DNA of 64,000 nucleotides from Hamadaea flava (lineage in GTDB: Bacteria > Actinomycetota > Actinomycetes > Mycobacteriales > Micromonosporaceae): assembly GCF_024172085.1 (NCBI RefSeq), contig NZ_JAMZDZ010000001.1:1736001-1800000 (forward strand). Direction: 5' to 3'. Numbering within the stretch: position 1 is the first letter of the stretch; each line of letters opens with the position of its first letter. The notes beneath the pieces were generated by a model. The model was given only the letters and a program-made list of their open reading frames with translations. It was not told the origin of the DNA and searched no databases. The position numbers were made by a program, and so were the translations under genes. Below are positions 3,205 through 53,153 of this stretch, in pieces.

Positions 3205-4470
3205 GTGTGGTCCGTGACAGGCGCCGGGTGGGCACAGAGCGCGGAGAACCTCGCGGCCGGGCCGCCGCTGCCCGTCCAGCAGGCGCGCCCGGCCACCGAT
3301 GTGGACGCCGCGCACATCGCTCGGGCGCAGGCGTTGGCCGCACCCAGAGCCGAAGCTCGCGAGGCGGCGTACGCAGCACTGGCCGCCGCTCAGGCCGCTG
3401 CCGCTGCCCCGCCCGCTCCCGTCGAACAGCAGCCGGCAGCCACCGTGCGGCCGAGTCCGGCACCTGCCATCGTGTCACCCGGCGTACGCCGTCCCCGCCG
3501 GGCGGTGCTGGTCCAGATCATGTGCTGGCAGCTCGGGCTGATCGCCGGGGTCGTCGCACTCCGTCAGCCGTGGCCGCTGGCCATCGCGGTGATCACCGTG
3601 GCGGCGGCGTTCATCGCGGTCACCGCGATCCCGGTACGCGGTCGCCGGGCGTACCAGTGGCTTGTGCTTTGGCTCGGTTTCGTACGCCGTGACCGCGACC
3701 GTGACCTGACCGATCAGGCCGGAGCGGCGCTGTTGCGGTTCTTGGCGCCCGAGGCGGTGACCGTCCCGGGTGAGCTGTTCATGGTGAGCCGCGCAGCCGG
3801 AGCGACCGCCGTCCTCCAGCCGACCGGCGAGCCCGGCGCGATTCCGTCCGCCACCGACCTGCTGCCCGGCGCGGGCGAGGCCGTCGCGTTCGCCGTGCAG
3901 GTCGTGCGGCATGCCGGGACCGACCGCAGCCGTCCACCTCGGACCTGGATCGCGCTCGAGGCTAGACGCACGGTCGACGTCCACCGCGATCCGGACGTGC
4001 ACCGCGTCCTCAGCAACGCGGTTCGGCGGGTCCTGCGCCGGCTTCGCCAGGAGGGCCTGCCCGCACGAGTCCTCGTCGAGCACGAGGTGCTCAGTACGCT
4101 CGCGGCGCTGGCGCACGTCAACGCCGGACGCGGCCAGATCCGGGAGACCTGGCGTCATTGGCGCAGCGGGCCGATCACTCAGATCACGTTCCGGATCGGT
4201 GATGCCGCAGCGCTCGCCGATCAGCTGCCGGTCCTGGCGCCCGGGGTCGCTGTCACGCTGGCCGTGACGGCGCACCGGCGACCGGGCCGGGCCGAAGCGG
4301 CGACGGAAGCGGTGGTACGCCTCGCGGCGCTCGATCACGGCGCGGTGGAGAAGGCGGCCGTCGAGTTTGAACGGATCGCCGGCGAGCGCGGGGTCGAGGT
4401 GGAACGTCTGGACGGGCGCCACGGCAAGGGTGTGGCCGCGACGCTGCCGATCGGCGGGCCGGACCGCTGA
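3205..4470 (+). CDS. eccE: Type VII secretion protein EccE-like
   Basis: EccE-like component of an ESX/type VII secretion system, 421 residues from the GTG at 3205 (418 from the in-frame GTG at 3214). An Ala/Pro-rich cytoplasmic N-terminus (about 1-95) precedes two closely spaced transmembrane helices (about 107-145) and a cytoplasmic alpha/beta domain, the usual EccE layout and length. EccE is a membrane subunit of the ESX core complex in mycobacteria. The rest of the ESX locus (EccC, EccD, MycP, WXG100 proteins) is not in this window, so the call rests on architecture and similarity of the membrane segment. Confidence 0.65.
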   Translation: MWSVTGAGWAQSAENLAAGPPLPVQQARPATDVDAAHIARAQALAAPRAEAREAAYAALAAAQAAAAAPPAPVEQQPAATVRPSPAPAIVSPGVRRPRRAVLVQIMCWQLGLIAGVVALRQPWPLAIAVITVAAAFIAVTAIPVRGRRAYQWLVLWLGFVRRDRDRDLTDQAGAALLRFLAPEAVTVPGELFMVSRAAGATAVLQPTGEPGAIPSATDLLPGAGEAVAFAVQVVRHAGTDRSRPPRTWIALEARRTVDVHRDPDVHRVLSNAVRRVLRRLRQEGLPARVLVEHEVLSTLAALAHVNAGRGQIRETWRHWRSGPITQITFRIGDAAALADQLPVLAPGVAVTLAVTAHRRPGRAEAATEAVVRLAALDHGAVEKAAVEFERIAGERGVEVERLDGRHGKGVAATLPIGGPDR

Positions 4471-4546
4471 GGCGGACCGAGTGCCGCGGTCGATCGTGGC
4501 GGCTGAAGGCGAAAACCGGGCGACGCCGGGTCGCATCCCCGGGACA

Positions 4547-5305
4547 ATGGTCGCCGTGGATGAGGTCGAAGTCGTCATCGCGCATGACGAGCGCGCGACC
4601 TTGCGGGTCGGCGAGGTCTTCCTGAAGATCGACGCCGATCGGGCGCGCCTCGATGCCGAGGTCGAGGCGATGACCTTGGCGCCGATCCCGACTCCCCGGA
4701 TCCTGTGGCGAAAGCCGCCCGTGCTCGCCCTCGCTGCCCTTCGCGGCACCACCCTCGGCACGTTGGGCCAGCCGTCGACCGCGTCCCCGGCGGCCTGGGC
4801 GGCGGCGGGAGCCGCCCTCCGATCGCTGCATGACGCACCGCTTCCGCCGTGGCCCGGCCGGAGCGTCGACAAGCTCGCCGCGGACCTCGAGGACGAATGC
4901 GAGTGGCTCCTCGCCAACGAGGTGCTTCCCACCGGCGTGCTTCCCGCAGACGTCGTCACGCACAACCGCCGGATCGCCGAAACCGTGCTGCGGCCGTGGA
5001 CCCCGGCGTTCACGCACGGCGACCTGCACGTGGCCCACGTGTTCGCCGAGGGCGACACGATCACCGGCGTGATCGACTGGTCCGAGGCCGCTCCGGGCGA
5101 CGCCCTCTTCGACCTCGCCAGTCTGACCCTCGGACATCCCGAACGCCTGGACGATGTGCTCGCGGGCTACGGCGACGCCGATCGCGACTTGATCCGCGCG
5201 TGGTGGTCCATGCGCTGCCTGCTGGCGATCCGCTGGCTGGCCGAGCACGGCTTCGACCCGAACGCGCCCGGCTGCGAGATCGACGTGCTGAGAGCCCAGA
5301 TGTAG
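4547..5305 (+). CDS. Aminoglycoside phosphotransferase (APH) family kinase
   Basis: 252-residue APH-fold small-molecule kinase. The catalytic loop HGDLHVAHVF (H157-D159) and the metal-binding IDWSEA (D177) are intact, so the enzyme is probably active. The N-lobe is short (about 30 residues before the hinge), so the protein lies near the lower size limit for the family. The ATG at 4547 is chosen; a GTG at 4556 is a possible alternative. The substrate cannot be read from sequence; members phosphorylate aminoglycosides, choline, homoserine and other amino- or hydroxyl-bearing compounds. Confidence 0.85.
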   Translation: MVAVDEVEVVIAHDERATLRVGEVFLKIDADRARLDAEVEAMTLAPIPTPRILWRKPPVLALAALRGTTLGTLGQPSTASPAAWAAAGAALRSLHDAPLPPWPGRSVDKLAADLEDECEWLLANEVLPTGVLPADVVTHNRRIAETVLRPWTPAFTHGDLHVAHVFAEGDTITGVIDWSEAAPGDALFDLASLTLGHPERLDDVLAGYGDADRDLIRAWWSMRCLLAIRWLAEHGFDPNAPGCEIDVLRAQM

Positions 5306-5592: not shown

Positions 5593-7755
5593 GTGCGATT
5601 CAGCCGTGCAGTCATTTCTCGTCCGCGCCGGCACGCGGCCCGATGGCTCACCGTGGCCATCGCGGCGGCGCTGGCGATCGTGTCCACGACGGCCAGCCCC
5701 GGTGCCGCACGCCCGAAGTCCCCCACGGGTACGACGGTCGTCGCGCCGTCGATCGTCGGCTATCCGCCGGTCGCCGCACCTCAGACGCCTGCCCCGAACC
5801 CGTTGCCCAAGAAGGGCGGCTCCGTCAAGCTCGACAAGTCCGCTCGCGTCAGCCCGAAGGCCGGCGCGTCGACGCTGGCCACCCCGGCCACCGCGAAGGT
5901 CGCCCTGCGCGCGCTGGTGGTCGCCACCACCAGCGACGATTTCGGCGTGCCGACATGGACCTCGACGCTGGACCAGGTCGGCGCGGCGTACGACGTGCTC
6001 TACACGGCGACCACGCCGCTGGCCGGCACGACGCTGGTGCGGCCGGACGGCACCGGCAAGTACAACGCGATCCTGCTCACCAGCACGATGCTCCTGTACT
6101 CCGACGGCGGCGGATACACCGCCGGGCTGACCGGCGACGAGTGGAACCTGCTGTGGGCGTACGAGCGGGACTACGGGGTTCGCCAGGTCTCGCTCTACGG
6201 CAGCTACGGCAGCTGGCCGGAGGACTACTGCCTGCGCGCGCGTACCGAGGGCAGCGTCGGCGACACCGCCCTGACCGCGACCCTGACGACCGACGGCGCG
6301 GCCGCGCTGGACTACCTCAACCCGGCCGCGAACATCCCGATCCTGCAGTCCTACGTGTATCGCAACCAGCTCGCGGCCGGCTGCGCCGCCCAGCCGGTGC
6401 TGCAGATCGGGTCGGACGTCGTCGGCGTACGCAGCACCTCCACCGACGGACGCGAGCGGATGACCCTCACGTTCACCTCGAACCAGTACCTGCTGCAGGC
6501 CCGCCTGCTGACCTACGGCCTGTTCCGCTGGGCCAGCAAGGATCTGTTCCTCGGCGATCAGCGCCACTACCTCAACATCGACGTGGACGACTGGTTCAAC
6601 ACCTCCGACGAGATGTTGCCGAACGGTCAGCTCAACAGCGACCCGGGCTACCAGATGAGCGGGCACGACGCGTACAACGCGTACCTCCGGCAGACCGGGC
6701 TGCGCAGCTCCTATCCGCTGGCCTCGCAGCTCACCTTCGGCATGGCCATCAACGGCGGCGACGCCAACCTCACGGCCGCTTCCCAGTGCTACCCCACCGG
6801 GGGCATCAATCGGTTGACCTCCACCACCCGCTGCCTGCGCAACAACTTCCGGTGGATCAACCACACGCTGACGCATCCGAAGATGAACTCCACGCCGTAC
6901 GCCACCAACGTGGCCGAGATCAGCCAGAACCTCACCGTCGCCCAGCGGCTCGGGTTGCCGGTCGACCGGACCGTGCTGAAGACGCCCGAGTACTCGGGTC
7001 TGGGCGTCTACAACCCGGACGCCACGAACGACGTCGACCCGCCCACCGACTTCGGGCTGAACGCCTCCAACCCCGACCTGTTGCGCGCCGCCACCGATCT
7101 CGGGGTGAAGTACCTGCACGGCAACATGTCGTTCCCGAGCCACCAGCCGCCCTGCTTCAACTGCGTGATCGCGCATCCGATGGCGCCGAACCTGAGCATC
7201 GTGCCGGACTGGCCCACGAACATCGCGTACTTCTCGACCACGCCCGACGAGGAGACCTACTTCTACAACTCGTTCTACGGGCCGAACGGCAAGTTCCCGT
7301 ACTGGTCGACCAACCTGACCTACAGCCAGATCATCGCGTACGAGACCGATCAGGCGCTGCTGCGGCTCGCCGCCGGGTCGTCCTACACGACCACGTTCCA
7401 CATCGGCAATCTGCGCGACTACGGCAGCGGCCAGACGCTGCTCACCGATTGGGCCCAGCAGCTGCTGGCCAAGTACAGCTCGTACTACTCCGTGCCGGTG
7501 CTCAGCCCTGGCTGGCCCGCCCTGGCCGCCTACGCCCAGGCCCGCACAGCACACTTCGCGCAGCTCAGAGCCGGTGTGGACGCCGTTTACGACGCCGCGA
7601 CCGTCACGGTCACGCTGACGTCGCCCACCGCGGGCACCCTCACGCTGTGCGGCGCGCAGACCGCCGGCGCCACCACCTACGGCAACGACGTCTCGGCACA
7701 GCTCACGCTCGCGGCGAACACGCCGCTCACCGTGTCGATGCGGCCCCGGCTATGA
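5593..7755 (+). CDS. Secreted CE18/Agd3-like exopolysaccharide deacetylase
   Basis: 720-residue secreted polysaccharide deacetylase resembling family CE18 (fungal Agd3), which de-N-acetylates galactosaminogalactan. A Sec signal (RRHAARWLTVAIAAALAIVSTTASPGAA) is followed by a Pro-rich linker and an alpha/beta domain to about residue 300. The catalytic NodB-like domain carries DVDDWF (D330, D332, D333) and NHTLTHP (H424, H428), which fit the metal-binding Asp and HxxxH motifs. A small C-terminal beta domain ends the protein. Start: GTG at 5593 with AAGGAG at 5581-5586; the frame is open further upstream but without protein-like sequence. Its stop overlaps the pelF start (ATGA), so it heads an operon. 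Deacetylation would make the polymer cationic and adhesive (known for Agd3 and PelA). Confidence 0.82.
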   Translation: MRFSRAVISRPRRHAARWLTVAIAAALAIVSTTASPGAARPKSPTGTTVVAPSIVGYPPVAAPQTPAPNPLPKKGGSVKLDKSARVSPKAGASTLATPATAKVALRALVVATTSDDFGVPTWTSTLDQVGAAYDVLYTATTPLAGTTLVRPDGTGKYNAILLTSTMLLYSDGGGYTAGLTGDEWNLLWAYERDYGVRQVSLYGSYGSWPEDYCLRARTEGSVGDTALTATLTTDGAAALDYLNPAANIPILQSYVYRNQLAAGCAAQPVLQIGSDVVGVRSTSTDGRERMTLTFTSNQYLLQARLLTYGLFRWASKDLFLGDQRHYLNIDVDDWFNTSDEMLPNGQLNSDPGYQMSGHDAYNAYLRQTGLRSSYPLASQLTFGMAINGGDANLTAASQCYPTGGINRLTSTTRCLRNNFRWINHTLTHPKMNSTPYATNVAEISQNLTVAQRLGLPVDRTVLKTPEYSGLGVYNPDATNDVDPPTDFGLNASNPDLLRAATDLGVKYLHGNMSFPSHQPPCFNCVIAHPMAPNLSIVPDWPTNIAYFSTTPDEETYFYNSFYGPNGKFPYWSTNLTYSQIIAYETDQALLRLAAGSSYTTTFHIGNLRDYGSGQTLLTDWAQQLLAKYSSYYSVPVLSPGWPALAAYAQARTAHFAQLRAGVDAVYDAATVTVTLTSPTAGTLTLCGAQTAGATTYGNDVSAQLTLAANTPLTVSMRPRL

Positions 7756-9290
7756 AGATCGCGCTCGTCTCGGAGGGGACCTACCCGTACGCGGTCGGCG
7801 GCGTCAGCACCTGGTGCGACCAGCTGATCCGCGGGTTCCCCGAATACCGGTGGGACATGGTGGCACTCACCGTGGACGGCACCGAACGACCGCTGTGGAG
7901 CACCCCGGCCAACCTCGACGCACTGCACCGGATACCGGTCTGGGGCTCGAGGCGGCCGGGGCGGGCTCCGGCCGGCGCCCAGGCCGAGCGGTTCGCCGCC
8001 GCGTACGAGACGCTGCTCGCGGCGATGCTGACGCCACCGGAGATCCGCTCCAGCGCGACAGCGGTGTGGCAAAGCCGGTTCCTGCTGGGTTTGCGGGCGG
8101 TCTACGACTTCGCGACGGCCGGCGGCGACCCGTACGCCGCCGTCACCACGAACCAGTCCATCAGCCAGCTCCTCGACGCCGCCCGGAAGCTGCGCGGCTG
8201 GGAGCTGGAGCTGGCCGAGGCGGCGTACGCCGCCGACGTCCTCGGTCACCTGCTGCGTCCGCTGGCCGCCGCGCCGCCGCGCTGCGATCTCGTCCATGCC
8301 TCCATGAACGGGTTGAGCATGCTGGTGGCGATGGCCGCCAAGTGGCGCGACGGCACCCCGGTCGTCATGAGCGAGCACGGCATCTACCTGCGTGAGCGGT
8401 ATCTCGAGTACATGGACTGCGACGCGCCGCCCGCGGTGCGGACACTGCTGCTGGGGTTCTTCCGCTCGCTGGCCGCGGCCGGTTACCTGATCTCGGACGT
8501 GCTCGCCCCGCATTCGGACTACAACCGGCGCTGGCAGCATCAGTTCGGCGCCGACCCGGACCGGATCTGGACCATGTACAACGGCGTCGAACTCGATCAG
8601 TTCCCGGTCGCCGAGGGCGAACCGGCCGAGCCGACGGTCGTCTACCTCGGCCGGATCAATCCGCTCAAGGACGTGCACACGCTCATCCGGGCGTTCGCCA
8701 CCGTGCGTACCCGGGTTCGGGGCGCCCGGCTGCGCATCTTCGGCGCCGCCGGTCCCGGTGACGAGGCGTACGCGGCGAGCTGCCGGCAGCTGGCCGAAGA
8801 CCTCGGGCTCGCCCGGTGGGTCACGTTCGAGGGTTCGGTGGACTCGCCGGTCACGGCGTACCACGCGGGCACCGTCGTCACCCTGACCAGCATCTCCGAG
8901 GGCTTCCCGGTGGCGGTCGTCGAGGCGATGGCGTGCGGCCGGGCGATGGTCTGCACGAACGTCGGCGGCGTGTCGGAGGCGGTGGCCGACGCCGGTTTCG
9001 TCGTGGCTCCGCGTGACCCGCTGGCCGTCGCCGACGCGCTGACGAAGCTCCTCACCGATCACGGGCTGCGGCGCCGGATGGCGCGGACGGCCCGGGAACG
9101 GGTCACGCAGTGGTTCACGCTGGCCGATTCGCTGCACGCGTATCGGCAGGTATACGAGGCGCTGGTGGCGCAGCCGCATCCGGCTGTCGCGGCACAACAG
9201 CGTCAGCTTCCCGTCGCCACGGTCCGGCCGGCGACCCGGTTACGCGTGATCGGCCGGGTGCCGCTGGCACACATCGAGGAGGTCGCATGA
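7752..9290 (+). CDS. pelF: GT4 glycosyltransferase PelF
   Basis: 512-residue GT4 glycosyltransferase of the PelF type. The N-terminus MKIALVSEGTYPYAVGGVSTW is the characteristic PelF donor-fold opening. The C-terminal Rossmann domain has YLGRINPLKDVHTL and the EX7E motif SISEGFPVAVVEAM (E383, E391). In Pel systems PelF polymerises UDP-N-acetylhexosamine at the cytoplasmic face and works with the membrane protein PelG. Here it overlaps the deacetylase gene upstream and the membrane protein gene downstream by four bases each, strongly indicating a joint assembly role. Confidence 0.92.
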   Translation: MKIALVSEGTYPYAVGGVSTWCDQLIRGFPEYRWDMVALTVDGTERPLWSTPANLDALHRIPVWGSRRPGRAPAGAQAERFAAAYETLLAAMLTPPEIRSSATAVWQSRFLLGLRAVYDFATAGGDPYAAVTTNQSISQLLDAARKLRGWELELAEAAYAADVLGHLLRPLAAAPPRCDLVHASMNGLSMLVAMAAKWRDGTPVVMSEHGIYLRERYLEYMDCDAPPAVRTLLLGFFRSLAAAGYLISDVLAPHSDYNRRWQHQFGADPDRIWTMYNGVELDQFPVAEGEPAEPTVVYLGRINPLKDVHTLIRAFATVRTRVRGARLRIFGAAGPGDEAYAASCRQLAEDLGLARWVTFEGSVDSPVTAYHAGTVVTLTSISEGFPVAVVEAMACGRAMVCTNVGGVSEAVADAGFVVAPRDPLAVADALTKLLTDHGLRRRMARTARERVTQWFTLADSLHAYRQVYEALVAQPHPAVAAQQRQLPVATVRPATRLRVIGRVPLAHIEEVA

Positions 9291-10720
9291 GCGCCGGGGC
9301 TTTGATGCCGCGGGCGCGCCAGGCCGCCGACGACGCCACGGCCGACGTCGGCTCCGTGCTGGCACGGATCAGCGGGTCCGATCCGGTGGACTACCTGGTG
9401 GAGCGCAGCCGCGCGGTCGCCGTACGCGCGGTCGACCCGCTGCAGATCGCCGCCTGGCTGGAGACCGACGGCGTGACCGACCGGGTGGCGCGGGTGGAGT
9501 TCGGCTACGCCGACGTGTTCGCGCTCGCCGAGGAGGTCTTTCGCCGGGCCGGTCCGCCGCCCTCGGTCGAGCGGCCCGCTCCCCCGGCGCTGGTCCGGGG
9601 TGCCCGCGATCTCGGCCACGGGGCGTTGTACCTGCTGCCCACGGCGATCTTCCCGGCTGTGCTGACGATGCTCGGCGCGAACGCGCTCCTGCGGGGTGTC
9701 CTCCTGGTCGGCTGGGTGAGCTGGGTCTTGAGCGGCAGCGCGGCGTGGCTCGGATATCACCTCGTCGGCGTCGGCCGGCCCGAGTCCGCCGGGCGGATTC
9801 TGCGGTGGTCGACGCTGGCCTCGCTTCCGGTCAGCGGACTGCTCGGCGCACTCGTCGTCGGGCGGAACGGCGGCGCGATCATCCTCGCGGTGGGGCTGAC
9901 GGCATACCAGATGAGCGTGACGACGCTGGTGTTCTACCGGCACGAGCAGTGGATCTTCGCCGCCATGGCACCCGCCGCGCTGGCCGGGATCCTCTGCCTG
10001 ACCGTCGGGCCCCGGCTGCTCGGGCCGGCGGTGGTCCTCGCGATGACGGCGGTCGCGTTCACCCTCGGCGCCGCGCTGCACGCCACGACGCATCCGGAGG
10101 CCCGGCCCGAGCCGCCACTGTGGCCGATGATCCGGATGAACCTCCGCCGGCTGACCTTGGTCGTGGCGTTCACCGCCCTGACGGCGGCCTACTTCCTTTA
10201 TCCACAGGCCTATCTGCTGTCCGGCGACCTGGTCATCGCGCTCGGCGCACTGCCGGTGGTCGCCGGGATGGGCATCGTGGAATGGCAGGCGCATCGCTTC
10301 GGCGACCGCGCGCACGCGTTGCTGGCCGAGGTGGGGCGGCCCGACCAGTTCGCGGCCAGGGCCGGCCGGCTCATGCTGATCGGGCTGGGAACCTGCCTGG
10401 CCGGCGTCGGCCTGCTCGCGGCCGGGCTGCTGGCGGCACTCGCCGTCGCCGGCAGGCTCAGCCCGCCGGTCCTGGCCATGTCGGCCGCGTCAGTGCTGCT
10501 CGCCGGCGCGTACTTCGTGACGTTCCTGCTCGCCAACCTCGGCCGGCAGGCGTGGCTGTGCGTCAGTCTGCTCGGCTGCCTGGTCGCGTTCACCGCCGCG
10601 GCCGGCAGCGGCTCGGCGGCTCGGGCCGCGGAGGTCTTCGCCGCCACGACGGCCCTTCTGCTGCTCCTGACGCTGGTCGCCGCGTACCGCCGGATCGGCC
10701 AGGTCTGGGGGCACCGGTGA
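9287..10720 (+). CDS. Polytopic membrane protein in the PelG position
   Basis: 477-residue protein with a cytoplasmic N-terminal domain of about 110 residues and about 12 predicted transmembrane helices (from about residue 112 to the end). PelG, the inner-membrane partner of PelF, also has about 12 helices, and this gene overlaps pelF (ATGA), so it is the natural candidate for exporting the nascent polymer. I do not see a PelG sequence signature such as the GIGFELR opening, so homology is not established; a MATE/MOP-like flippase or an unrelated exporter remain possible. Confidence 0.7.
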   Translation: MSAGALMPRARQAADDATADVGSVLARISGSDPVDYLVERSRAVAVRAVDPLQIAAWLETDGVTDRVARVEFGYADVFALAEEVFRRAGPPPSVERPAPPALVRGARDLGHGALYLLPTAIFPAVLTMLGANALLRGVLLVGWVSWVLSGSAAWLGYHLVGVGRPESAGRILRWSTLASLPVSGLLGALVVGRNGGAIILAVGLTAYQMSVTTLVFYRHEQWIFAAMAPAALAGILCLTVGPRLLGPAVVLAMTAVAFTLGAALHATTHPEARPEPPLWPMIRMNLRRLTLVVAFTALTAAYFLYPQAYLLSGDLVIALGALPVVAGMGIVEWQAHRFGDRAHALLAEVGRPDQFAARAGRLMLIGLGTCLAGVGLLAAGLLAALAVAGRLSPPVLAMSAASVLLAGAYFVTFLLANLGRQAWLCVSLLGCLVAFTAAAGSGSAARAAEVFAATTALLLLLTLVAAYRRIGQVWGHR

Positions 10721-10848
10721 CGACGTCCGATCATCCGCACACGACTCAGCCGTACGCGACTCATCCGCACCTGACTCAACCGCACACGGCTCATCCGCAC
10801 ACGACGAAGGAGGTCCGCCGTGCACGCTGTGATCCTGGCGGGCGGTAA
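10717..10848 (+). CDS. Possible 43-residue pentapeptide-repeat mini-protein
   Basis: A GTG at 10717 overlaps the stop of the membrane protein gene (GTGA) and opens a 43-codon frame. Its middle part repeats a His/Pro/Thr pentapeptide (DHPHT, TQPYA, THPHL, TQPHT, AHPHT). The frame ends at 10848, overlapping the start of the nucleotidyltransferase gene by 29 bases. No convincing ribosome-binding site is seen other than the coupled position. It may be a real coupled mini-protein, possibly metal-binding through its histidines, or only a by-product of the DNA tandem repeat that fills the gap. Confidence 0.3.
   Translation: MTTSDHPHTTQPYATHPHLTQPHTAHPHTTKEVRRARCDPGGR
10729..10803 (+). repeat. Five tandem 15-bp units
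   Basis: Five head-to-tail 15-bp units at 10729, 10744, 10759, 10774 and 10789 with consensus ACTCATCCGCACACG; units differ at one to three positions. The array fills most of the only real gap inside the operon, just upstream of the AAGGAGGT ribosome-binding site of the nucleotidyltransferase gene. The unit length is a multiple of three, so unit-number changes would keep the mini-frame open. Confidence 0.9.
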
Positions 10849-11557
10849 GGGAACCCGGCTCCTGCCATACACGACCGTGCTGCCGAAACCTCTGGTACCC
10901 ATCGGCGACAACCATTCGATTCTCGACATCATCCTGTGCCAGCTGGCCGGCGCCGGCTTCACCTCGGCCACCCTCGCGATCAACCACCTGGGCCGGCTCA
11001 TCCGGGCGTTCGCCGGGGACGGGTCTCGCTGGGGCATCACCATCGACTACGCCGAGGAGAACAGCCCACTGTCCACAGTGGGACCGCTGTTCGGGCTCAG
11101 GGACCGGCTCCCCGAGACGTTCCTGGTGATGAACGGCGACGTGCTGACCGACCTGAACTACGCCGATCTGCTCACCACCCACCAACGCAGCGGTGCTCCG
11201 CTGACCGTCGCCACGTCACCACGCACGACCCACATCGAGTTCGGCGTGCTGACCCTGGAGAACCGCAGAGTCGTCGGATTCACCGAGAAGCCGGCGTTCA
11301 CCTATCGGGTCAGCATGGGCGTCTACGGCATGTCCCGCGACACGTTGCAGCCGTATGCCCTCGGCCAGGCGCTCGGCTTCGACCGGCTGATCCTCGACCT
11401 CATCGACCGGCGGCTGTTCCCGGCCACCTACGACTTCGGCGGCTTCTGGCTCGACATCGGCCGGCCCGATGACTACGACGTGGCCAACCGGGACTTCGCC
11501 AAGTTGCAGGATCTGCTGCTGCCCGAACCAGTTCGCACGCTGGTGGAGGCGAGATGA
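10820..11557 (+). CDS. NDP-sugar pyrophosphorylase (nucleotidyltransferase)
   Basis: 245-residue nucleotidyltransferase that would make an NDP-sugar from a sugar-1-phosphate. The N-terminal signature LAGGKGTRLLPYTTVLPKPL with GD motifs, and NGDVLTDLNY, identify the glucose-1-phosphate thymidylyltransferase/mannose-1-phosphate guanylyltransferase superfamily. It lacks the long C-terminal beta-helix of GlmU. GTG start with AAGGAGGT at 10806-10813. The stop overlaps the next gene (ATGA). In this operon it probably supplies an activated precursor; base and sugar specificity are not readable. Confidence 0.88.
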   Translation: MHAVILAGGKGTRLLPYTTVLPKPLVPIGDNHSILDIILCQLAGAGFTSATLAINHLGRLIRAFAGDGSRWGITIDYAEENSPLSTVGPLFGLRDRLPETFLVMNGDVLTDLNYADLLTTHQRSGAPLTVATSPRTTHIEFGVLTLENRRVVGFTEKPAFTYRVSMGVYGMSRDTLQPYALGQALGFDRLILDLIDRRLFPATYDFGGFWLDIGRPDDYDVANRDFAKLQDLLLPEPVRTLVEAR

Positions 11558-12450
11558 ACCGAATCCTGCTGCTGGGCGCGTCCGGCTTTCTCGGCGGTCA
11601 CGTGCACCGGGCGCTGCTGGACCACCCTCGGCTCAACGACGTCAGCTGTCCCGGCCGCGATCGGTGCGACCTGATCACCGCCTCGGTCGGCGACATCACG
11701 CGGCTGCTGAACGACGAGCGCCCAGCCGCCGTCGTCAACTGCACCGGGCGGCTGGACGGGGACCTCGCCGACCTGGTGCTCGCCAACACCGTCGTCACGG
11801 CCAAGCTGCTCGACGCCATCGCCGTGACGAACGCGCCGATCCGCCTGGTACGCCTCGGCTCGGCCGGCGAGTACGGGCCGATCCCGTTCCATCATTCGGT
11901 CACCGAGACCCATCCGGCCCAGCCGGTCGGCGCATACGGGCTCAGCCACCTCACGGCTACGCACCTCGTGTCCATGGCGGCCGCCGCCGGACGAGTCGAC
12001 GGCGTGACGCTGCGGGTGTTCAACCCGATCGGCACCGGGTCAGGCGATGCCAGCCTGCTCGGACGGGCCACAACGCAACTGCGCCAAGCCGTTTCGGGGG
12101 GATGGACGTCGATGACGTTCGGCCCGCTGTCGGCGTACCGCGACTTCGTGGACGCCCGCGACGTGGCGAGTGCGGTCGTCGCCGCGCTCCTCGCGCCCCG
12201 GCTGCCGGTCCGGGTGCTCAACGTCGGCAGCGGCCGGGCGGTGCAGACGCGGGCCGCCGTCCAGACGTTGGCTCGCCTGGCCGGGTTCACCGGTGAGATC
12301 AAGGAGACCGGTGCGAGTTCCGCGCGCTCCGCCGAGGTGAGCTGGACCTGCGCCGACATCAGCCATGCCGGGTCGATTCTGGACTGGCGACCGGCGCACG
12401 ACCTGGATGAGTCGCTCAAGGCGTTGTGGGCGGGATCGGCCGGCGCATGA
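11554..12450 (+). CDS. NAD-dependent epimerase/dehydratase
   Basis: 298-residue extended short-chain dehydrogenase. The Rossmann motif GASGFLGG lies at residues 7-14, and a catalytic Ser/Tyr region is found around GSAGEYGPIPF. The active-site YxxxK appears degenerate (AYGLSHL instead of Y-x3-K), so the catalytic lysine may be missing; the enzyme could be a reductase relative rather than a true 4-epimerase. It overlaps the genes on both sides by four bases, so it belongs to the exopolysaccharide operon and most likely modifies an NDP-sugar. Confidence 0.8.
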   Translation: MNRILLLGASGFLGGHVHRALLDHPRLNDVSCPGRDRCDLITASVGDITRLLNDERPAAVVNCTGRLDGDLADLVLANTVVTAKLLDAIAVTNAPIRLVRLGSAGEYGPIPFHHSVTETHPAQPVGAYGLSHLTATHLVSMAAAAGRVDGVTLRVFNPIGTGSGDASLLGRATTQLRQAVSGGWTSMTFGPLSAYRDFVDARDVASAVVAALLAPRLPVRVLNVGSGRAVQTRAAVQTLARLAGFTGEIKETGASSARSAEVSWTCADISHAGSILDWRPAHDLDESLKALWAGSAGA

Positions 12451-13334
12451 AAGGCATGTGTCCCACCGTCGTGGTGCTGACGCTGACCCTGGTCGCCAGC
12501 GGCTGCGGCGAGCCGCCGGCCACCTCGGCTGCCGCCGACAGCGGCTGGATCTACCAGTTGCAGGGTTATCCGGGTGGCAGGCTCGACGAGATCGCGGCCC
12601 GCAGACCACCGTACGCCGTGATCGACCTGGCTCGCGACAACTCGACCGGCTACTTCCGAGCCGACGAGATCGCGGCGCTCCGGGCCGCCGGAACGACGGC
12701 CTTGGCCTACTTCGAGATCGGCAGCATCGAGAACTTCCGGCCCGACTTCCCGGCCGTGCAGGATCGCGGGCTGCTGCTCAACGAGTGGCCGGACTGGCCC
12801 GGCGAGCGGTTCGGCCGCTACTGGGAACCGGCTTGGTGGGACACCGTCGTCCGGCCCCGGTTGGACCGGGCGCTGGCGGCCGGGTTCGACGGCGCCTATC
12901 TGGACACCCCGCTCGCCTACGAGGAGATCGACCTCGCGCGCGTACCGGGATGGGATCGCGGACGGCTCGCGCGGGCGATGGCGGACCTCGTCGTGCGCAT
13001 CAGCCGGTACGCGAAGGCTCACCGCCCCGGGTTCCGCATCGTCCCGCAGAACTCGCCGGAACTGCGTCACCAGGGCGGCTACACCGAGGCGATCGACGGT
13101 GTCGGCGTCGAAGAGCTCTTCTATCAGGCCACCGACGTGCCCTGCGAGCAGCGCTACTGCGCCGAGAACCTCGCCGACGTGAAGGCGTTGCGCGACGGCG
13201 GCAAGTTCGTGCTCGCCGTCGATTACGCGGTGAAGCCGGAGCACGTCCAGGCGTTGTGCACCCGCTACCGAAAAGAACAGTTCGCCGGCTATGTCGGCGT
13301 ACGCGAGCTGGACCGCATCGGGGTCAGCTGCTGA
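12447..13334 (+). CDS. GH114-like endo-alpha-1,4-polygalactosaminidase lipoprotein
   Basis: 295-residue secreted lipoprotein: signal peptide with lipobox ending VASGC (C20), then a TIM-barrel domain of the GH114/TM1410 type. Family landmarks are AYFEIGS (E90), GFDGAYLDT (D153), PQNSPE and GVEELFY (E222/E223). In fungal Ega3, which cleaves alpha-1,4-galactosaminan, the catalytic pair is an Asp and a Glu in equivalent strand-end positions; D153 and E222/E223 are the likely counterparts (inference). A polymer-cleaving hydrolase inside a synthesis operon parallels PelA and Ega3. ATGA overlap with the upstream epimerase. Confidence 0.85.
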   Translation: MKGMCPTVVVLTLTLVASGCGEPPATSAAADSGWIYQLQGYPGGRLDEIAARRPPYAVIDLARDNSTGYFRADEIAALRAAGTTALAYFEIGSIENFRPDFPAVQDRGLLLNEWPDWPGERFGRYWEPAWWDTVVRPRLDRALAAGFDGAYLDTPLAYEEIDLARVPGWDRGRLARAMADLVVRISRYAKAHRPGFRIVPQNSPELRHQGGYTEAIDGVGVEELFYQATDVPCEQRYCAENLADVKALRDGGKFVLAVDYAVKPEHVQALCTRYRKEQFAGYVGVRELDRIGVSC

Positions 13335-13356
13335 TCACTGTAGGAGGATCTGGAAA

Positions 13357-14658
13357 GTGCCGAAGAACATCGGGATCATCGGGCTGGGCTATGTCGGGCT
13401 CACCCTCACCGCCGCGCTCGCCCGGGCCGGGCACACCGTTCACGCCGTGGACGTGCAGCCGGACGTCGTCGACGAGCTGGCCCGCGGCCGGACGCACATC
13501 TACGAGCCGGGCGTGGACGAGGTGCTCCGCAGGTACGCCGGCACCCGCATCCTCGTGGGCCGGCAGCTGCCCCGGGACGGGCTGGACGCCGCGGTCATCT
13601 GCGTCTCGACGCCCGTGGATCCGCTCACCCACGAGCCCGACCTGCGAAACGTCGCCGCCGCGACCGCCGACGTCGCCGAATGGTGTGCACCCGGCACGCT
13701 CGTGGTCGTGCGCAGCACGGTGCCGATCGGCGCCTGCCGGCGGGTCGTCCTGCCGATCCTCGCCGCCACCTGGGAGACCCCGTTGCTGGCGATGGCGCCG
13801 GAACGGACGATCCAGGGCCAGGCGCTGCGGGAGCTCGTCGAGTTGCCGCAGATCGTCGGCGGCCTCGACGACGGCAGTGTCGCCGCCGCCGTCGAGGTGT
13901 TCGGACAGCTCGCCAACGTCGTGGTGCCGGTCTCCAGCCTTGAGGTGGCCGAAATGGTCAAGCTGGCCAACAACTGCCACACCGATCTGATCTACGCCTT
14001 CGGCAACGAGGTGGCGCTGATCGCCGAACGGCACGGGATCGATCCGCTGGAGCTGATCCACGCCGCGAACGTCGGCTATCCGAGGCCGGATCTGTCCCGC
14101 CCTGGATACGTCGGCGGCGGCTGCCTGTCCAAGGACCCGTACCTGATGCTCGCCAGCTCCGCCGGCGAGGGGACGTTCCTGATCGACCGGGCGCGCGAGC
14201 TCAACGAACACCTTCCGCTGCACGTGGCCCGCCAAGTGGTGGAGCTCCTCGCGGAGCGTCACGGCTCCACGGCCGGCAAGCGGCTGGCCGTGCTGGGCTG
14301 GGCGTACAAGGGCACCCCGCCGACTGACGACATGCGCGGCACGCCCATCGCGACGATGATTCCGGTGTTCCGCGAGGCTGGGCTGACCGTGCTCGGGCAC
14401 GATCCGATGGTGACCCCAGAGGTGATCCGGGCCTTCGGCGGCGAGCCGATCAGTCTGGAGAAGGCGTTCAGCGACAGCGACGCCGTTCTGGTCGTCACCG
14501 ACCATCCGGACTATCGCGCGCTGCGCGTCGAGGACGTGGTCACCTACGGGCAGCCGGAGCTGGTCTACGACTCCTGGCGGGTCCTGAACGAGAAGGCGCT
14601 GACGGCGGCGGGCATCCGATACGCCGGGCTCGGCTATCGAGTGGGGGCGCCGGCATGA
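13357..14658 (+). CDS. UDP-glucose/UDP-N-acetylhexosamine 6-dehydrogenase family
   Basis: 433-residue nucleotide-sugar dehydrogenase that oxidises C6 of a UDP-sugar to the uronic acid. The N-terminal GLGYVGL (residues 7-13), the KLANNCHTDLIYAFGNE helix and the catalytic cysteine motif GGCLSKD (C256, K259) are present, followed by the C-terminal UDP-binding Rossmann domain. GTG start with AGGAGG at 13342-13347; 22 bases separate it from the previous gene. It suggests that the polymer, or a second sugar, contains a uronic acid, which Pel and galactosaminogalactan do not have. WecC-like ManNAc and UDP-GalNAc dehydrogenases are alternatives. Confidence 0.88.
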   Translation: MPKNIGIIGLGYVGLTLTAALARAGHTVHAVDVQPDVVDELARGRTHIYEPGVDEVLRRYAGTRILVGRQLPRDGLDAAVICVSTPVDPLTHEPDLRNVAAATADVAEWCAPGTLVVVRSTVPIGACRRVVLPILAATWETPLLAMAPERTIQGQALRELVELPQIVGGLDDGSVAAAVEVFGQLANVVVPVSSLEVAEMVKLANNCHTDLIYAFGNEVALIAERHGIDPLELIHAANVGYPRPDLSRPGYVGGGCLSKDPYLMLASSAGEGTFLIDRARELNEHLPLHVARQVVELLAERHGSTAGKRLAVLGWAYKGTPPTDDMRGTPIATMIPVFREAGLTVLGHDPMVTPEVIRAFGGEPISLEKAFSDSDAVLVVTDHPDYRALRVEDVVTYGQPELVYDSWRVLNEKALTAAGIRYAGLGYRVGAPA

Positions 14659-16319
14659 GGACACTGCTTCTGGGCGGCGCGGGGTTCATCGGGCTGCACC
14701 TGGCCCGCCGGCTCGCCGCCGACGGCCACCAGGTCTGCATCGTCGACGACTTCTCTCGCGCCCGCCACGACCAGGATCTCACCGCCGTCTGCGAGCATCC
14801 GGCGGTCACGGTGGTCTCGGCCGACCTGACGTCGGCCGAGGCGTGGGCCGACCTTGAGCACGGCTGGGATCAGGTCTACCTGCTCGCGGCGGTGGTGGGC
14901 GTACGCAATGTGGAACGCGATCCGGCTCGGGTCATCCGGGTCAACACCATGACGGTGATGAATCTGCTGGACTGGATCCACCCTGTAGAGGACGGCCGGG
15001 TGTTCTTCGCCTCGACCAGCGAGGTGTACGCCGGCGGTGTCGAAGCGGGCGTCGTCGGCATCCCGACCGCCGAGAACGTTCCCCTGATGATCTCCGACAT
15101 CGCCGCGCCGCGGTTCGCGTACGCCGCGAGCAAGCTGCTCGGCGAGGCGGCCCTGCTCCACGCCGCCTCCGCGAAGCGGTTCGACCTGGTCATCGGCCGG
15201 TTCCACAATGTATACGGGCCCCGCATGGGCAGCGACCACGTCATTCCCGAGATGCTGATGCGAGCCGTGAACGGGGAGGAGCCGTTCGCCGTCCCGGGTG
15301 CCGACCAGTATCGCGCCTTCTGCTACATCGACGACGCGATCGAGGCCATGCTGCGGCTGATGGAGAGCCCCAAGGCGAGCCGGCGGATCGTGCACATCGG
15401 CAACGACACCGAGACCACCAAGATCGTCGATCTGGCGGCGCTAGTCCTGGAGGCGACCGGGCACACCGCCACTGTCCACGCCGAGCCCGCGCCGTCGGGA
15501 TCCGTGAGCCGCCGCTGGCCCGACCTGTCGCTGCTGCGACGGCTGACGGGCTACGAGCCGAAGGTCTCCCTCGCCGAGGGCGTCATCCGCACCCGAGACT
15601 GGTACGCGGCATGGATGCGGCCAGGCCGCAAACGTAAGCCGATCGCCTTCTACTACGGCAACGGGCAACTCGACCGGCTGACCGAATACCGCACAGTGGT
15701 GCTGCAACCAGACTTCTACCGGGCCCGTGATCTGCTCTACCTCGGCCAGCGGGGCGTACGCACCCTGGCGTACCTGTCGCTGTCGGAGGACCAGGGCCCA
15801 CCGGCGCCCTGGCAGCGCGACGACCGCAACCCGGACTGGGGCGGCCACTTCGTCCACGTCGATCATCCCGGCTGGGTCGACCATGTCCTGAGCCAGGCGG
15901 ACACCGCGTTGGCGATGGGCTTCGACGGTCTGTTCCTCGACACGCTCAACGTCGAGCTGACCTATCCGGAGGACGTCCCGCATCTGATCTCCCTGATCAC
16001 CGCGATGCGGGCGATGGCCGGTTCGGCGTACATCCTGGCCAACCGGGGTTTCGGCATGTTGCCGGAACTCGCCGAACTGGTGGACGGGGTGCTCTTCGAG
16101 TCCTTCTCGGTGCGGTGGGTCGAGGACGGGTACGCCCCGTGGCCGCAGGACGTGCTGGAGCACCATGCGCAGATCGCCGAGGGCCTGGCCGACCTGGAAC
16201 TGGACCTGTACGCGCTCGACTACGCCGACAGCGACGGGCTCGCCGCCTTCGCCGCCCGGCGGGCGGAACAATTCGGATTGGAGGTGTTCGTCAGCGACCG
16301 GGCCCTCTCCCAGCTGTGA
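14655..16319 (+). CDS. NAD-dependent epimerase fused to a GH114-like domain
   Basis: 554-residue two-domain protein. Residues 1 to about 315 are a UDP-sugar 4-epimerase-type SDR: GGAGFIG near the N-terminus and YAASK (Y156, K160) intact. Residues about 325-554 are a second GH114-like TIM barrel beginning IAFYYGNGQL, with GFDGLFLDTLN (D429), ANRGFG and LFESFSVRW (E482), like the lipoprotein encoded two genes upstream. No signal peptide is present, so the hydrolase-like half should be cytoplasmic. This is unexpected for an enzyme that cuts the mature polymer and suggests a role on precursor or nascent chain, or a purely binding role. ATGA overlap upstream; last gene of the operon. Confidence 0.85.
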   Translation: MRTLLLGGAGFIGLHLARRLAADGHQVCIVDDFSRARHDQDLTAVCEHPAVTVVSADLTSAEAWADLEHGWDQVYLLAAVVGVRNVERDPARVIRVNTMTVMNLLDWIHPVEDGRVFFASTSEVYAGGVEAGVVGIPTAENVPLMISDIAAPRFAYAASKLLGEAALLHAASAKRFDLVIGRFHNVYGPRMGSDHVIPEMLMRAVNGEEPFAVPGADQYRAFCYIDDAIEAMLRLMESPKASRRIVHIGNDTETTKIVDLAALVLEATGHTATVHAEPAPSGSVSRRWPDLSLLRRLTGYEPKVSLAEGVIRTRDWYAAWMRPGRKRKPIAFYYGNGQLDRLTEYRTVVLQPDFYRARDLLYLGQRGVRTLAYLSLSEDQGPPAPWQRDDRNPDWGGHFVHVDHPGWVDHVLSQADTALAMGFDGLFLDTLNVELTYPEDVPHLISLITAMRAMAGSAYILANRGFGMLPELAELVDGVLFESFSVRWVEDGYAPWPQDVLEHHAQIAEGLADLELDLYALDYADSDGLAAFAARRAEQFGLEVFVSDRALSQL

Positions 16320-16473: not shown

Positions 16474-17823
16474 ATGGGACACGAGGACCGGGGCGGCTTG
16501 AGCCGCCGGGCCCTGACACTCGGGCTGGGCGCGGTCGGCGGTGCGAGCGCCGCCGCGCTGCTGGGCGTCGAGGCCGCCGCCGCCAACACCGACCCCTCGG
16601 TCTACACGGTGGACGTGAAGACCTTCGGGGCCAAAGGCGACGGCGTGACCGACGACTCCGCGGCCATCAAGGCAGCGGTGACCGCCGCGATCGCCGGCCG
16701 GGCCTCCGGCGTGGCGCAGAAGGAGATCTTCTTCCCGCCGGGCAACTACCGCATCACGCAGAAGGACACCCTCATGTGGTCCCCGACCACCGGCACCGCC
16801 GACCAGGTCTTCGGCCTGCGTTACCGCGGCTCCGGCGTACGGGTCACGACGATCACGTTCGACACCACGTTCGCCGCGAACGCCGACCCGCGGGAGAACA
16901 ATCTCATCACCGCGGCGGTACGCCTGCGCTACACCACGTTCGAGGACATGAGCGTCAGCTCGACCAATCCGAACAACAACTTCGCGTACTACTGGTCGGT
17001 GATCTCGGTCGCCGGCGACTCGGTGTATCCGCAGTACGGGGCCGGGCAGAACCAGTACTTCGTCTACCGCAACGTCGAATGGCGTGGAAAGTGGAACCGG
17101 GTCATCGGGCTCGACGGCGACAAGTACGCCAACAACAACAGCGAGCACCACTTCCTGCTCTGCTCGACGGACACCGTCTCGGCGTACACCGACGCGTTCC
17201 TGCACTGCGGCGTGACCAACCCGGCCGGGAGCAAACAACAGGACCAGTTCCTCAACTACTTCTTCCTGTCCTGCAACTTCGCCCTGGCGGGCGGAGACCT
17301 GCTCAAGTTCGACCGGGGCGGCTCCATCAACGTCTTCGGCGGCTCGTGGTCGATGGTCGGCACCGCGCCCGCGCGCTACTTCGCGCTCTCCAACACCGCC
17401 GACGGCGACATCACCGACGCGCGTCTCAACGTCAACGGCGTACGGTTCGAACCCAAGAAGGGAGCCGAGCAGAAGGTCATCGACTGCGACTGGAACCGGG
17501 GCAACGTCACCTTCACCTCCTGCTCCGACGTCGCCGCGATCCAGGACTCGGCCGGATTCCTGAACTTCCACCGCTACACCGGCGGCGGCACGGGCAGGCT
17601 GCCGATCGTGCGCTACCAGGATTGCGTCCTGGGCGGCTATCACGTGGTGGCGGCCGACGGGGCCACCCTCACCAACGGCAAGCTGATCTACGAAGGCTGC
17701 CGGTTCCACCACACCTCGACCGCGGTGAGCGCCTCGACCGGGACGGCCTTCCTCCGTTACGACGCCAACCCCAAGCGGTACGCCTTCCGCGACTCCTGGG
17801 CGACCGCGGACGTCACGGCGTAA
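16474..17823 (+). CDS. Tat-exported pectate-lyase-like beta-helix protein
   Basis: 449-residue exported protein. A twin-arginine signal (SRRALTLGLG followed by an Ala-rich hydrophobic stretch to about residue 35) precedes a Pfam pectate-lyase-superfamily opening, VKTFGAKGDGVTDDSAAIKAAV. The rest is a right-handed beta-helix rich in N, T and aromatic residues. Such folds bind or cleave polysaccharides. ATG start with GGGGAGGATC just upstream. It has its own upstream gap after the operon terminator and ends at its own strong terminator, so it is a separate unit, but its position suggests a role in processing or anchoring the same polymer. No catalytic residues could be assigned. Confidence 0.8.
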   Translation: MGHEDRGGLSRRALTLGLGAVGGASAAALLGVEAAAANTDPSVYTVDVKTFGAKGDGVTDDSAAIKAAVTAAIAGRASGVAQKEIFFPPGNYRITQKDTLMWSPTTGTADQVFGLRYRGSGVRVTTITFDTTFAANADPRENNLITAAVRLRYTTFEDMSVSSTNPNNNFAYYWSVISVAGDSVYPQYGAGQNQYFVYRNVEWRGKWNRVIGLDGDKYANNNSEHHFLLCSTDTVSAYTDAFLHCGVTNPAGSKQQDQFLNYFFLSCNFALAGGDLLKFDRGGSINVFGGSWSMVGTAPARYFALSNTADGDITDARLNVNGVRFEPKKGAEQKVIDCDWNRGNVTFTSCSDVAAIQDSAGFLNFHRYTGGGTGRLPIVRYQDCVLGGYHVVAADGATLTNGKLIYEGCRFHHTSTAVSASTGTAFLRYDANPKRYAFRDSWATADVTA

Positions 17824-50548: not shown

Positions 50549-50611
50549 GCCACCGGCTGATTCGGCAATCGCGGCCGCGCCCGCTGGAACTCCACAGTGG
50601 ATGGCGATGGG

Positions 50612-50682
50612 AGGCCCCGACCGGAATCGAACCGGCGTAACACGCTTTGCAGGCGCGCCCCTCACCACTCGGGCACAGGGCC
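50612..50682 (-). tRNA. tRNA-Cys (GCA)
   Basis: 71-base cloverleaf: acceptor GGCCCTG / CGGGGCC with one wobble, anticodon loop CTGCAAA (anticodon GCA), T-loop TTCGATT, discriminator U as expected for Cys. Standard T8 and A14. CCA is not encoded (TCCC follows). Flanked by the VOC and M61-like genes; 1.6 kb from the other tRNAs. Confidence 0.9.
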
Positions 50683-50711
50683 ATGGACACCAGCTGGGTT
50701 AGTGTCACTCG

Positions 50712-52343
50712 ATGCATCTCTTGGTGACTTTGACGGTAGGGCCACGCGGAGTCCTGGTGACGTGGCGGCTGGACGGTGTCACCTTGAACACCGAGGAGAC
50801 ACTCGGACAACTGCCCCTGTCCATCGCCGGCGCGCCCACACTCCAGCTCGACGACGCGGCCGTGACCGCGAGAGACGCGCTCGGAGCCGTACCGCTCATC
50901 ATGAGCATTTCTGAGGACGACGACGGCGACCCTCGACGCCGCTGGAGCGTGCGGCGCTCCACTTCCGGACCGATCGAAGTGTCGTATCTGGCGGAGCCCG
51001 TGGCGAAAGAACCCCTGCCCGCCACCGCACCGCTCGAACTTCGCGCGGAGGGCGTCGGGCTTTCCGGAGCCCTGAAGTGCTTCCTGATCCTGCCGCCGGG
51101 ACCGGAGGACCTCACCTTCACGGTGCGATGGGACAGACCTGCCACCTCCGACAGCTGGATGGCTGTCACCAGCCTGGGTGAAGGCGACGGACACGACGGC
51201 GAACTGGCGGGTACCGGGCTCGAACTGCTCGGAGACACCTACATCATGTGCGGCGACCTGACGAACCATCATCACCGCGACGGCGAGCTGTCGACCTGGT
51301 GGCTGACGCCTCCGGGCATCGACGTCGAAGCCTTCAGCGCGCAGCTGGGAGCGACGTACCAGGTCATGTCCGAGGCGTTCGACGCACCGGCACACCCCTA
51401 CCGGGTCTTCCTGCGTACCCACCCGCACCAAGGTGCCAACGCCTCTGCTCATCCGGCGTCGTTCGTGATGGCCGTGAACCCGGCCAACCCCCTCGATGAG
51501 GCGTCGCTCTACGAAACCATCGCCCACGAACTCGTCCACGAATGGCTACATCTGGACGGACCGGCCGACGAGGTGACCTGGTTCTCCGAAGGGGCCGCCG
51601 ACTACTACTCCCTCGTCCTTCCCCTCCGCGAAGGAATGCTCGACGAGGAAGCGTTCCTGCGCGCAGTCAACCTCGAAGCCCGGGAGGCCTATGCCAACCT
51701 GCGGCGCGACCTGCATCTCCGGCAGGCGCACCAACTGTTCTTCTCGGACTTCCTGGCCCACCGGCTCCCGTACGCACGCGGCATGTTCTATCTCGCAGAC
51801 CTGGACGCCCGCATCAGGCTCGCGACCTCAGGCGAACAGTCTGTCGACGACGTCGTCCGATACGTCGTGCGAAGCCGCCAGGCCGGCGCACGCGTCGGCG
51901 TCGAGCGATGGTGCGCCCGTGTTCAGGAAATCCTCCCTGACGCCGAGATGCCCATCCTCGACCGCATGGTCTTCACCGGCGTAGGCCGACCGGGCAAGGG
52001 CTGCTTCGGACCACGGTTCGAGGCGGAGACAGTCCAGGTTCCCATCCTCGACCTCGGGTTCGACCCGTCCACACTCGTGACGCGTCGCGTCCGAGGGCTG
52101 GTCCCCGGCGGAGCCGCCGAACGCGCCGGACTCCGCGACGGCGAGCGCATCGAACTTCCCCGATACCCGGACATCATCCGCCTCGACGTCGGCGACATGC
52201 TCCGCATCGGGCTGACTCGGGACGGCGAGACAACCCATATCAGCATCCCCTTGATCGGGAAGACAGCACCTGTGCCGCAATGGCGTACGCGATCCGGTGC
52301 CGAAACAAATGTGGGTGGGCGCGGAGGGAATCGAACCCCCTAA
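50712..52343 (+). CDS. M61-like gluzincin metalloprotease with PDZ-like end
   Basis: 543-residue protein: an N-terminal beta-rich region (1-160), then a gluzincin catalytic domain with HELVHEW (H272, E273, H276) and the downstream Glu of EGAADYY (E293), then a C-terminal PDZ-like segment with VRGLVPGGAAERAGLRDGERI. This arrangement resembles M61 glycyl aminopeptidases. No signal peptide is evident. The last nine residues (GGRGGNRTP) are encoded antisense to the 3' part of the tRNA-Tyr gene, so the true end may differ or the overlap may be recent. Confidence 0.75.
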   Translation: MHLLVTLTVGPRGVLVTWRLDGVTLNTEETLGQLPLSIAGAPTLQLDDAAVTARDALGAVPLIMSISEDDDGDPRRRWSVRRSTSGPIEVSYLAEPVAKEPLPATAPLELRAEGVGLSGALKCFLILPPGPEDLTFTVRWDRPATSDSWMAVTSLGEGDGHDGELAGTGLELLGDTYIMCGDLTNHHHRDGELSTWWLTPPGIDVEAFSAQLGATYQVMSEAFDAPAHPYRVFLRTHPHQGANASAHPASFVMAVNPANPLDEASLYETIAHELVHEWLHLDGPADEVTWFSEGAADYYSLVLPLREGMLDEEAFLRAVNLEAREAYANLRRDLHLRQAHQLFFSDFLAHRLPYARGMFYLADLDARIRLATSGEQSVDDVVRYVVRSRQAGARVGVERWCARVQEILPDAEMPILDRMVFTGVGRPGKGCFGPRFEAETVQVPILDLGFDPSTLVTRRVRGLVPGGAAERAGLRDGERIELPRYPDIIRLDVGDMLRIGLTRDGETTHISIPLIGKTAPVPQWRTRSGAETNVGGRGGNRTP

Positions 52344-52399
52344 GCCATGCGGCAACTGGGTTACAGCCAGCCCCGACTCTCCAACGTCGGCGCGCGCCC
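52316..52399 (-). tRNA. tRNA-Tyr (GTA), atypical
   Basis: 84-base class II-like tRNA: acceptor GGGCGCG / CGCGCCC, anticodon stem GCTGG / CCAGT, loop CTGTAAC (anticodon GTA), a small extra arm GCC-GCAT-GGC, and T-arm GGGGG-TTCGATT-CCCTC. Positions 8 and 14 are both C instead of the usual T8 and A14, so tertiary folding would be unusual. Member of the tRNA array; overlaps the 3' end of the M61-like gene antisense. Confidence 0.7.
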
Positions 52400-52436
52400 T
52401 TGAACGGCCGATCGTCGACGCTTCATACCGACCGGT

Positions 52437-52511: not shown

Positions 52512-52513
52512 AG

Positions 52514-53117: not shown

Positions 53118-53153
53118 CGGGTCACCTCCTTCAGTCTGTCTGGCCGGTGGATG

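Follow-up and report, generated by a model that had tools for sequence, protein, structure and literature searches.

What does a Pel-like gene cluster build when its exporter is not PelG, and why would it apparently keep a PelA-like hydrolase inside the cell? Both questions are raised by an eight-gene operon of the actinomycete Hamadaea flava, on the plus strand at positions 5593-16319 of a 64,000-nucleotide stretch (the window) that sits within one 8.86 Mb contig (NZ_JAMZDZ010000001.1). Our analysis favors a PelF-type, synthase-dependent operon that probably makes a galactosamine-containing exopolysaccharide, using an exporter with the MOP fold that is not PelG and a GH166 hydrolase predicted to be cytoplasmic. 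The product would resemble the sticky galactosamine polymers of Pseudomonas and Aspergillus biofilms. All eight open frames lie where an earlier note on this DNA had placed them. The parts, including two short-chain dehydrogenase/reductase (SDR) proteins or domains, are as follows.

5593..7755, plus strand: CBM87-CE18 (Agd3-like) polysaccharide deacetylase with a signal-like N-terminal segment (Pfam, 6nwz, motifs, hydropathy).
7752..9290, plus strand: PelF, a GT4 family glycosyltransferase (NCBIfam PelF equivalog; DUF3492 and GT4-type domains).
9287..10720, plus strand: 12-helix membrane protein (MemP) with a MOP-transporter fold and a non-PelG sequence.
10820..11557, plus strand: sugar-1-phosphate nucleotidyltransferase (Pfam NTP_transferase, E 2e-33; GTG start after GGAGG).
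11554..12450, plus strand: epimerase/reductase-like SDR in which the YxxxK lysine is histidine (Pfam Epimerase, E 7.6e-31).
12447..13334, plus strand: GH191-type lipoprotein (9ep5 match, lipobox-like VASGC; start shifted from 12426).
13357..14658, plus strand: nucleotide-sugar 6-dehydrogenase (NCBIfam NDP-sugDHase; start shifted from 13291).
14655..15620, plus strand: N-terminal SDR domain of a fusion protein, UXS/ArnA/LegB-like, with an intact YxxxK.
15621..16319, plus strand: C-terminal GH166 (PelA-hydrolase-like) domain of the same fusion protein.

Five of the seven junctions are 4-bp overlaps: deacetylase/PelF, PelF/membrane protein, nucleotidyltransferase/SDR, SDR/GH191 and dehydrogenase/fusion gene. 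This count depends on the two shifted starts, which place GH191 at the ATG at 12447 and the dehydrogenase at the GTG at 13357, after AGGAGG. The remaining junctions are gaps of +99 bp (membrane protein to nucleotidyltransferase) and +22 bp (GH191 to dehydrogenase). The eight-gene operon with mostly four-base overlaps described in the earlier note therefore holds.

The deacetylase scored above cut-off against both Agd3 domains of Pfam (the pair PF25116 and PF25115), with 42.7 bits for CBM87_Agd3 and 34.3 bits for Agd3_CE, and matched the solved Agd3 structure 6nwz at E 4.7e-13. Its N-terminus is hydrophobic. The Asp-Asp, HxxxH and His motifs (D332 D333, H424xxxH428 and H603) are invariant in 12 sequences, the window's included, and together with the two domains they confirm the assignment as a CE18/Agd3-like enzyme. 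PelF scored 167.5 bits against the PelF equivalog NF038011 (cut-off 100). It carries DUF3492 and GT4-type domains in Pfam, and E383 and E391 of its EX7E motif show ≥95% conservation across 62 sequences.

To place the operon among its relatives, we scanned named genomes with a CE18 alignment. The scan confirmed 126 relatives, of which the best 80 were used, representing 78 distinct loci. With the window and 15 fetched regions these gave 94 loci, or 91 after removal of the duplicates L021, L023 and L032, and gene order was surveyed with hidden Markov models (HMMs) built from the same loci that they count. Loci of the window's type were defined by a CE18 score above 800, which 55 of the 91 exceeded, including the window and two loci from one genome (Nonomuraea soli). 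Their hosts are Micromonosporaceae, Streptosporangiaceae and two Thermaceae. All nine modules occur in a single order and on a single strand in 37 of the 55, far beyond chance, so the conserved gene order that the earlier note had looked to is indeed found. Among the other 18 loci, 5 lack GH191 alone, an inversion covers the last four modules in 3, and 10 are shortened, rearranged or truncated where the contig stops. The closest copy is L049, from Hamadaea sp., whose deacetylase is 90% identical.

PelF is present in 55/55 of these loci and the MOP-fold exporter in 54/55, the exception being a contig that ends in PelF. A deacetylase and two galactosaminidase-like proteins could also equip a catabolic locus for attacking fungal galactosaminogalactan or Pel, but the near-constant synthase and exporter, and the 4-bp overlaps joining the CE18, PelF and MemP genes in the window, make that explanation highly improbable.

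The exporter itself had been described as a 12-helix, PelG-like protein. Twelve long helices and a MOP fold (MATE/Wzx/MurJ type) were found, along with a conserved N-terminal domain of ~60 residues, and PelG is a MOP protein; by sequence, however, the two belong to different families. The PelG model PF16933 matched neither the window's MemP nor seven relatives and had 0 matches in the window's own genome; the PelG proteins of L034 and L035 scored 464 and 475 bits. Alignment of MemP with PelG by hhalign returned a probability of 0.1%, from PelG profiles that are shallow (5 and 4 sequences). PelG was thus ruled out by sequence, and the likeness is kept only as an analogy of fold. In a PelF tree of 73 rows, built by a quick method and with long branches flagged, 3 PelG-linked rows fall on one side and 65 MemP-linked rows on the opposite side, with a single exporter change; five further rows have no detected exporter. 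The MemP-bearing branch suggests that PelF is able to work with another exporter family. PelG accompanies CE18 in L034, L035 and L104, which are true PelF-PelG-CE18 triplets of Rubrobacter-type genomes, and in one deltaproteobacterial metagenome-assembled genome (MAG). At L113, from a deltaproteobacterial MAG, PelF and PelG stand with six consecutive CE18-like stretches.

The earlier note saw no PelD, and none scored above cut-off across the genome (PF16963/PelD_GGDEF, best E 0.42). These results bear on whether the locus is simply an ordinary Gram-positive pel operon (pelDEADAFG) plus accessory genes. PelF is common to both, and known Gram-positive loci are flanked by accessory glycoside hydrolase and epimerase genes (PMC7112168; here and below, papers are cited from their accessible portions). 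The Bacillus cereus operon further shares a PelA-hydrolase homologue and an epimerase nearby, as well as a deacetylase with alpha/beta/alpha plus CE domains (PMC7112168, PMC13254593). In contrast, neither PelD nor PelG was found here, CE18 replaces PelADA, and the GH166 has no signal peptide, unlike B. cereus PelAH (PMC7112168). We rejected a canonical Pel operon since the genome yielded neither a PelG match nor an above-threshold PelD, and consider the Gram-positive version very doubtful.

The last gene had been called an epimerase-GH114 fusion. Its N-terminal domain is an SDR. The hydrolase part gave no Pfam GH114 match and instead matched the GH166 domain of PelA in both sequence (5tcb, E 3.7e-14) and fold (Foldseek, E 2.9e-18); GH114 was therefore rejected for this domain. 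D107 and E160 align to the PelA catalytic residues D160 and E218, and both are retained in 53/53 cassette GH166 proteins (49 from the 55 loci, one from L022, whose contig begins after PelF, and three from Thermus).

Characterized enzymes of this kind work beyond the inner membrane: PelA acts in the periplasm (PMC12022489), and B. cereus PelAH, which was expressed "minus its signal sequence", normally carries one (PMC7112168). We judged signal-like segments by hydropathy alone, with Kyte-Doolittle windows rather than SignalP. Under a single rule (13-residue mean ≥1.8 within 45 residues of any allowed start), a hydrophobic N-terminus was present in 51 of 53 scored CE18 proteins, 38 of 41 scored GH191 proteins and 0/53 cassette GH166 proteins; three CE18 and three GH191 proteins without an allowed start went unscored. 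An earlier test with unequal windows (50, 80 and 95 residues) gave 54/56, 39/44 and 0/53, respectively. GH166-like genes outside the cassette had a hydrophobic N-terminus in 12/12 cases, with scores of 2.48-3.15 for eight matches in the wider phylum, 2.55-2.6 for three Thermus second copies and 2.1 for L118. In Thermus L101, L102 and L115, a second, signal-bearing GH166-like protein is encoded near 4 kb, upstream of the cassette with its signal-less GH166.

Could the cassette GH166 be exported non-classically and work outside, as periplasmic PelA and signal-bearing PelAH do (PMC12022489, PMC7112168)? In the window, L049 and L051 (3/53) it forms the C-terminus of a nucleotide-cofactor (NAD-type) SDR. 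Where it is unfused (50/53), its start codon is at most 14 residues from the domain start, except in L076, which allows up to 31. Both features speak against such export, which we regard as quite unlikely.

The GH166 gene is also a steady member of the cassette, being found in cis in 49/55 loci, and in four of the six exceptions the contig breaks off. Longispora lacks a GH166 in cis, and a dehydrogenase-SDR-GH166 set is located elsewhere in its genome. Even the four-gene cassette of L100 (Nonomuraea dietziae) retains it, as CE18-PelF-MemP-GH166, and Thermus L115 reads CE18-PelF-MemP-like-GH166. A cytoplasmic GH166 is thus likely to be a core part of this branch. No description of one was found in the literature, with subscription papers mostly outside the search coverage. 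One use for it would be salvage, in which the enzyme degrades re-imported oligosaccharides rather than nascent chains. The predicted location fits, and the fused SDR could process the freed sugars; however, the nine conserved modules include no importer, and in L100 the gene persists beside CE18, PelF and the exporter. Salvage therefore seems unlikely, although less so than non-classical export.

From these assignments we infer what the polymer is, which way it is transported, what GH166 does and that a further sugar is supplied, as follows. PelF would polymerize GalNAc, probably alpha-1,4-linked, from UDP-GalNAc in the cytoplasm. MemP, with its own N-terminal domain, would take the place of PelG and pass the chain out, and no PelD c-di-GMP receptor would take part. 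Outside the cell, the CBM87-CE18 enzyme would strip acetyl groups and the GH191 lipoprotein would cut deacetylated stretches. Inside, the signal-less GH166, here fused to a nucleotide-sugar SDR, may act on a nascent or stalled chain; its simplest role would be to limit chain length or to clear the chain once export stops. The nucleotidyltransferase, dehydrogenase and SDR would have an accessory part, providing one more nucleotide sugar that may be a uronate or a product made from one. The partly deacetylated galactosamine polymer proposed in the earlier note is, on the strength of these families, probable.

Several points weigh against this proposal. The polymer's identity is read from enzyme families, and a different monomer is conceivable, since the family and structure searches do not fix which substrates the dehydrogenase and the SDR use. 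Transglycosidase action is also conceivable for a retaining hydrolase. GH166 does not appear to be strictly required, since Micromonospora fulviviridis gave no GH166 match in a genome search; nor was GH166 found in the two Streptomyces genomes searched, which represent a second cluster type. The three fused SDR N-termini have hydropathy values of 1.68-1.79 (a Rossmann strand), barely below the cut-off of 1.8. Among the five locus copies outside the cassette, the single rule was positive only for L118, because the domain lies ~220 residues from the start in the other four, whose positive scores come from a separate hydropathy scoring. Lastly, the MemP-type PelF operon of L033 is adjoined by a secreted GH166-like protein (one of the eight phylum matches), and the missing signal is thus a trait of this type of cassette rather than of MemP operons in general.

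A broader claim is more tentative and, in our estimate, somewhat short of even. These loci may form a distinct, PelD-less class of galactosaminoglycan synthase, in actinomycetes and Thermaceae, that pairs PelF with a non-PelG MOP exporter. In it, an endo-galactosaminidase of the GH166 family, cytoplasmic and tied to nucleotide-sugar metabolism, would edit or terminate the chain on the inner side of the membrane, ahead of export, and the catalytically altered SDR may replace PelD as regulator. Pel-type hydrolases described in the accessible literature act after export. A PelA-type hydrolase kept in the cytoplasm, even in the four-gene version, would allow a direct test of chain control by an endo-hydrolase during synthesis. 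Additionally, the survey marks out many Micromonosporaceae, Streptosporangiaceae and Thermaceae that probably make galactosamine polymers.

The middle SDR keeps Y128, while the lysine position of YxxxK is H in 47/56, R in 4/56 and K in 5/56 homologues. A lysine-less protein of this kind is presumably not a working epimerase. It recalls the altered epimerase domain borne by some Gram-positive PelD proteins (PMC7112168), a parallel rather than a demonstrated homology. The dehydrogenase scored 300.9 bits against NCBIfam NDP-sugDHase (cut-off 189.8); its nearest solved structures are 4r16, CalS8 and Cap5O, and it is closest to UDP-ManNAc and UDP-Glc dehydrogenases. The fused SDR most resembles decarboxylases, LegB and epimerases; its YxxxK and GxxGxxG motifs are conserved, with both Y and K present in 49/49.

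The remaining hydrolase had been described as a GH114-like lipoprotein. It does have a lipobox-like VASGC and passes the Pfam GH114 cut-off at 113 bits, but its nearest solved enzyme is Env-GH191 (9ep5, E 1.4e-72, versus 7e-7 for Ega3). The lipoprotein thus falls closest to the TM1410/Env-GH191 type, and the active-site Asp and Glu of GH191 are kept in 44/44 proteins. A lipobox pattern fits 21/44, so lipidation is predicted for only part of the set. The report on Env-GH191 and TmGH191 (PMC12054363) does not, in its accessible text, describe an operon role.

How much of this is new? Bamford et al. (2020; PMC7229062) had already described operons of bacteria in which agd3 is joined by genes for a glycosyltransferase located in the cytoplasm, a GH114-like enzyme and a multi-spanning membrane protein, and all of these have counterparts here beside CE18. 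They reported Agd3 homologues in actinobacteria and Deinococcus-Thermus, linked the operons to the fungal cluster and argued that they support its bacterial origin; transfer between bacteria and the fungal cluster had already been raised in 2016 (PMC4817252). A CE18/PelF-type operon is thus not new as a headline. The pairing of fungal-type processing enzymes with a Pel synthase, which the earlier note held to be unusual, survives as CE18 with PelF, but the hydrolases are nearest GH191 and GH166 and so are probably not of the fungal types, and both the combination and the link to fungal origin are already in PMC7229062. As far as its accessible text goes, that paper does not set the membrane protein apart from PelG, does not separate GH191 (proposed in 2025) or GH166 from GH114, and makes no mention of a signal-less GH166. 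Correspondingly, four points were not found described in the portions of the literature available to us: that the exporter is separate from PelG, that the hydrolases belong with GH191 and GH166, that the nine modules keep a fixed order, and that the GH166 lacks a signal. The operon is a real, well conserved variant of Pel/galactosaminogalactan-type systems.

With the Aspergillus galactosaminogalactan cluster (PMC4817252) the operon shares CE18, an epimerase-like SDR, an endo-galactosaminidase-like enzyme and one glycosyltransferase. It differs in its hydrolases, in having glycosyltransferase and membrane protein as separate genes, and in a low Agd3-model score. The eight operon proteins gave no Pfam match to Sph3 (spherulin-4-like, GH135). 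With closeness to fungal CE18 judged only by Agd3_CE Pfam score as a proxy, the window's enzyme reached 34 bits, versus 92-131 in 6/10 and 23-52 in 4/10 other bacterial CE18s; by this measure, the window's lineage is not the most Agd3-like among them.

Beyond the main set of hosts, Thermaceae L097 and L099 (Meiothermus granaticius and a MAG) carry a near-complete cassette with 48-52% CE18 identity, no GH191 seen, and the dehydrogenase and SDR on the opposite strand, probably as the result of transfer between phyla. The second, Streptomyces-like cluster type combines a CE18-like gene, PelF and a membrane protein. In L027 and L029, two members of this type from the window's own family, the hydrolase tested as a strong GH114 (Pfam). 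Across the wider phylum, CE18 occurred in 6/396 genomes, PelG over cut-off in 7/396 and GH166-like matches in at least 9/386 (with up to 7 candidates scored per genome); MemP matched in 11/61 relatives. Symbioplanes lichenis (L061, 7.3-12.0 kb) has two tandem CE18 genes ahead of its cassette. CE18 also appeared on MAG contigs labelled Akkermansia muciniphila or Klebsiella pneumoniae (L105, L107, L110, L117), perhaps through binning errors.

Directly downstream of the operon lies a right-handed beta-helix gene (Pfam Pect-lyase_RHGA_epim; window 16474-17823), and upstream, at 3205-5302, are an EccE-like (type VII secretion) gene and an APH-family phosphotransferase gene. Four flanking genes, the beta-helix gene among them, had no tblastn match at E 1e-5 around the 78 named loci, within flanks of up to 10 kb, and were rejected as cassette members. 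Farther along the window, seven tRNA genes lie on the minus strand at 50610-53500.

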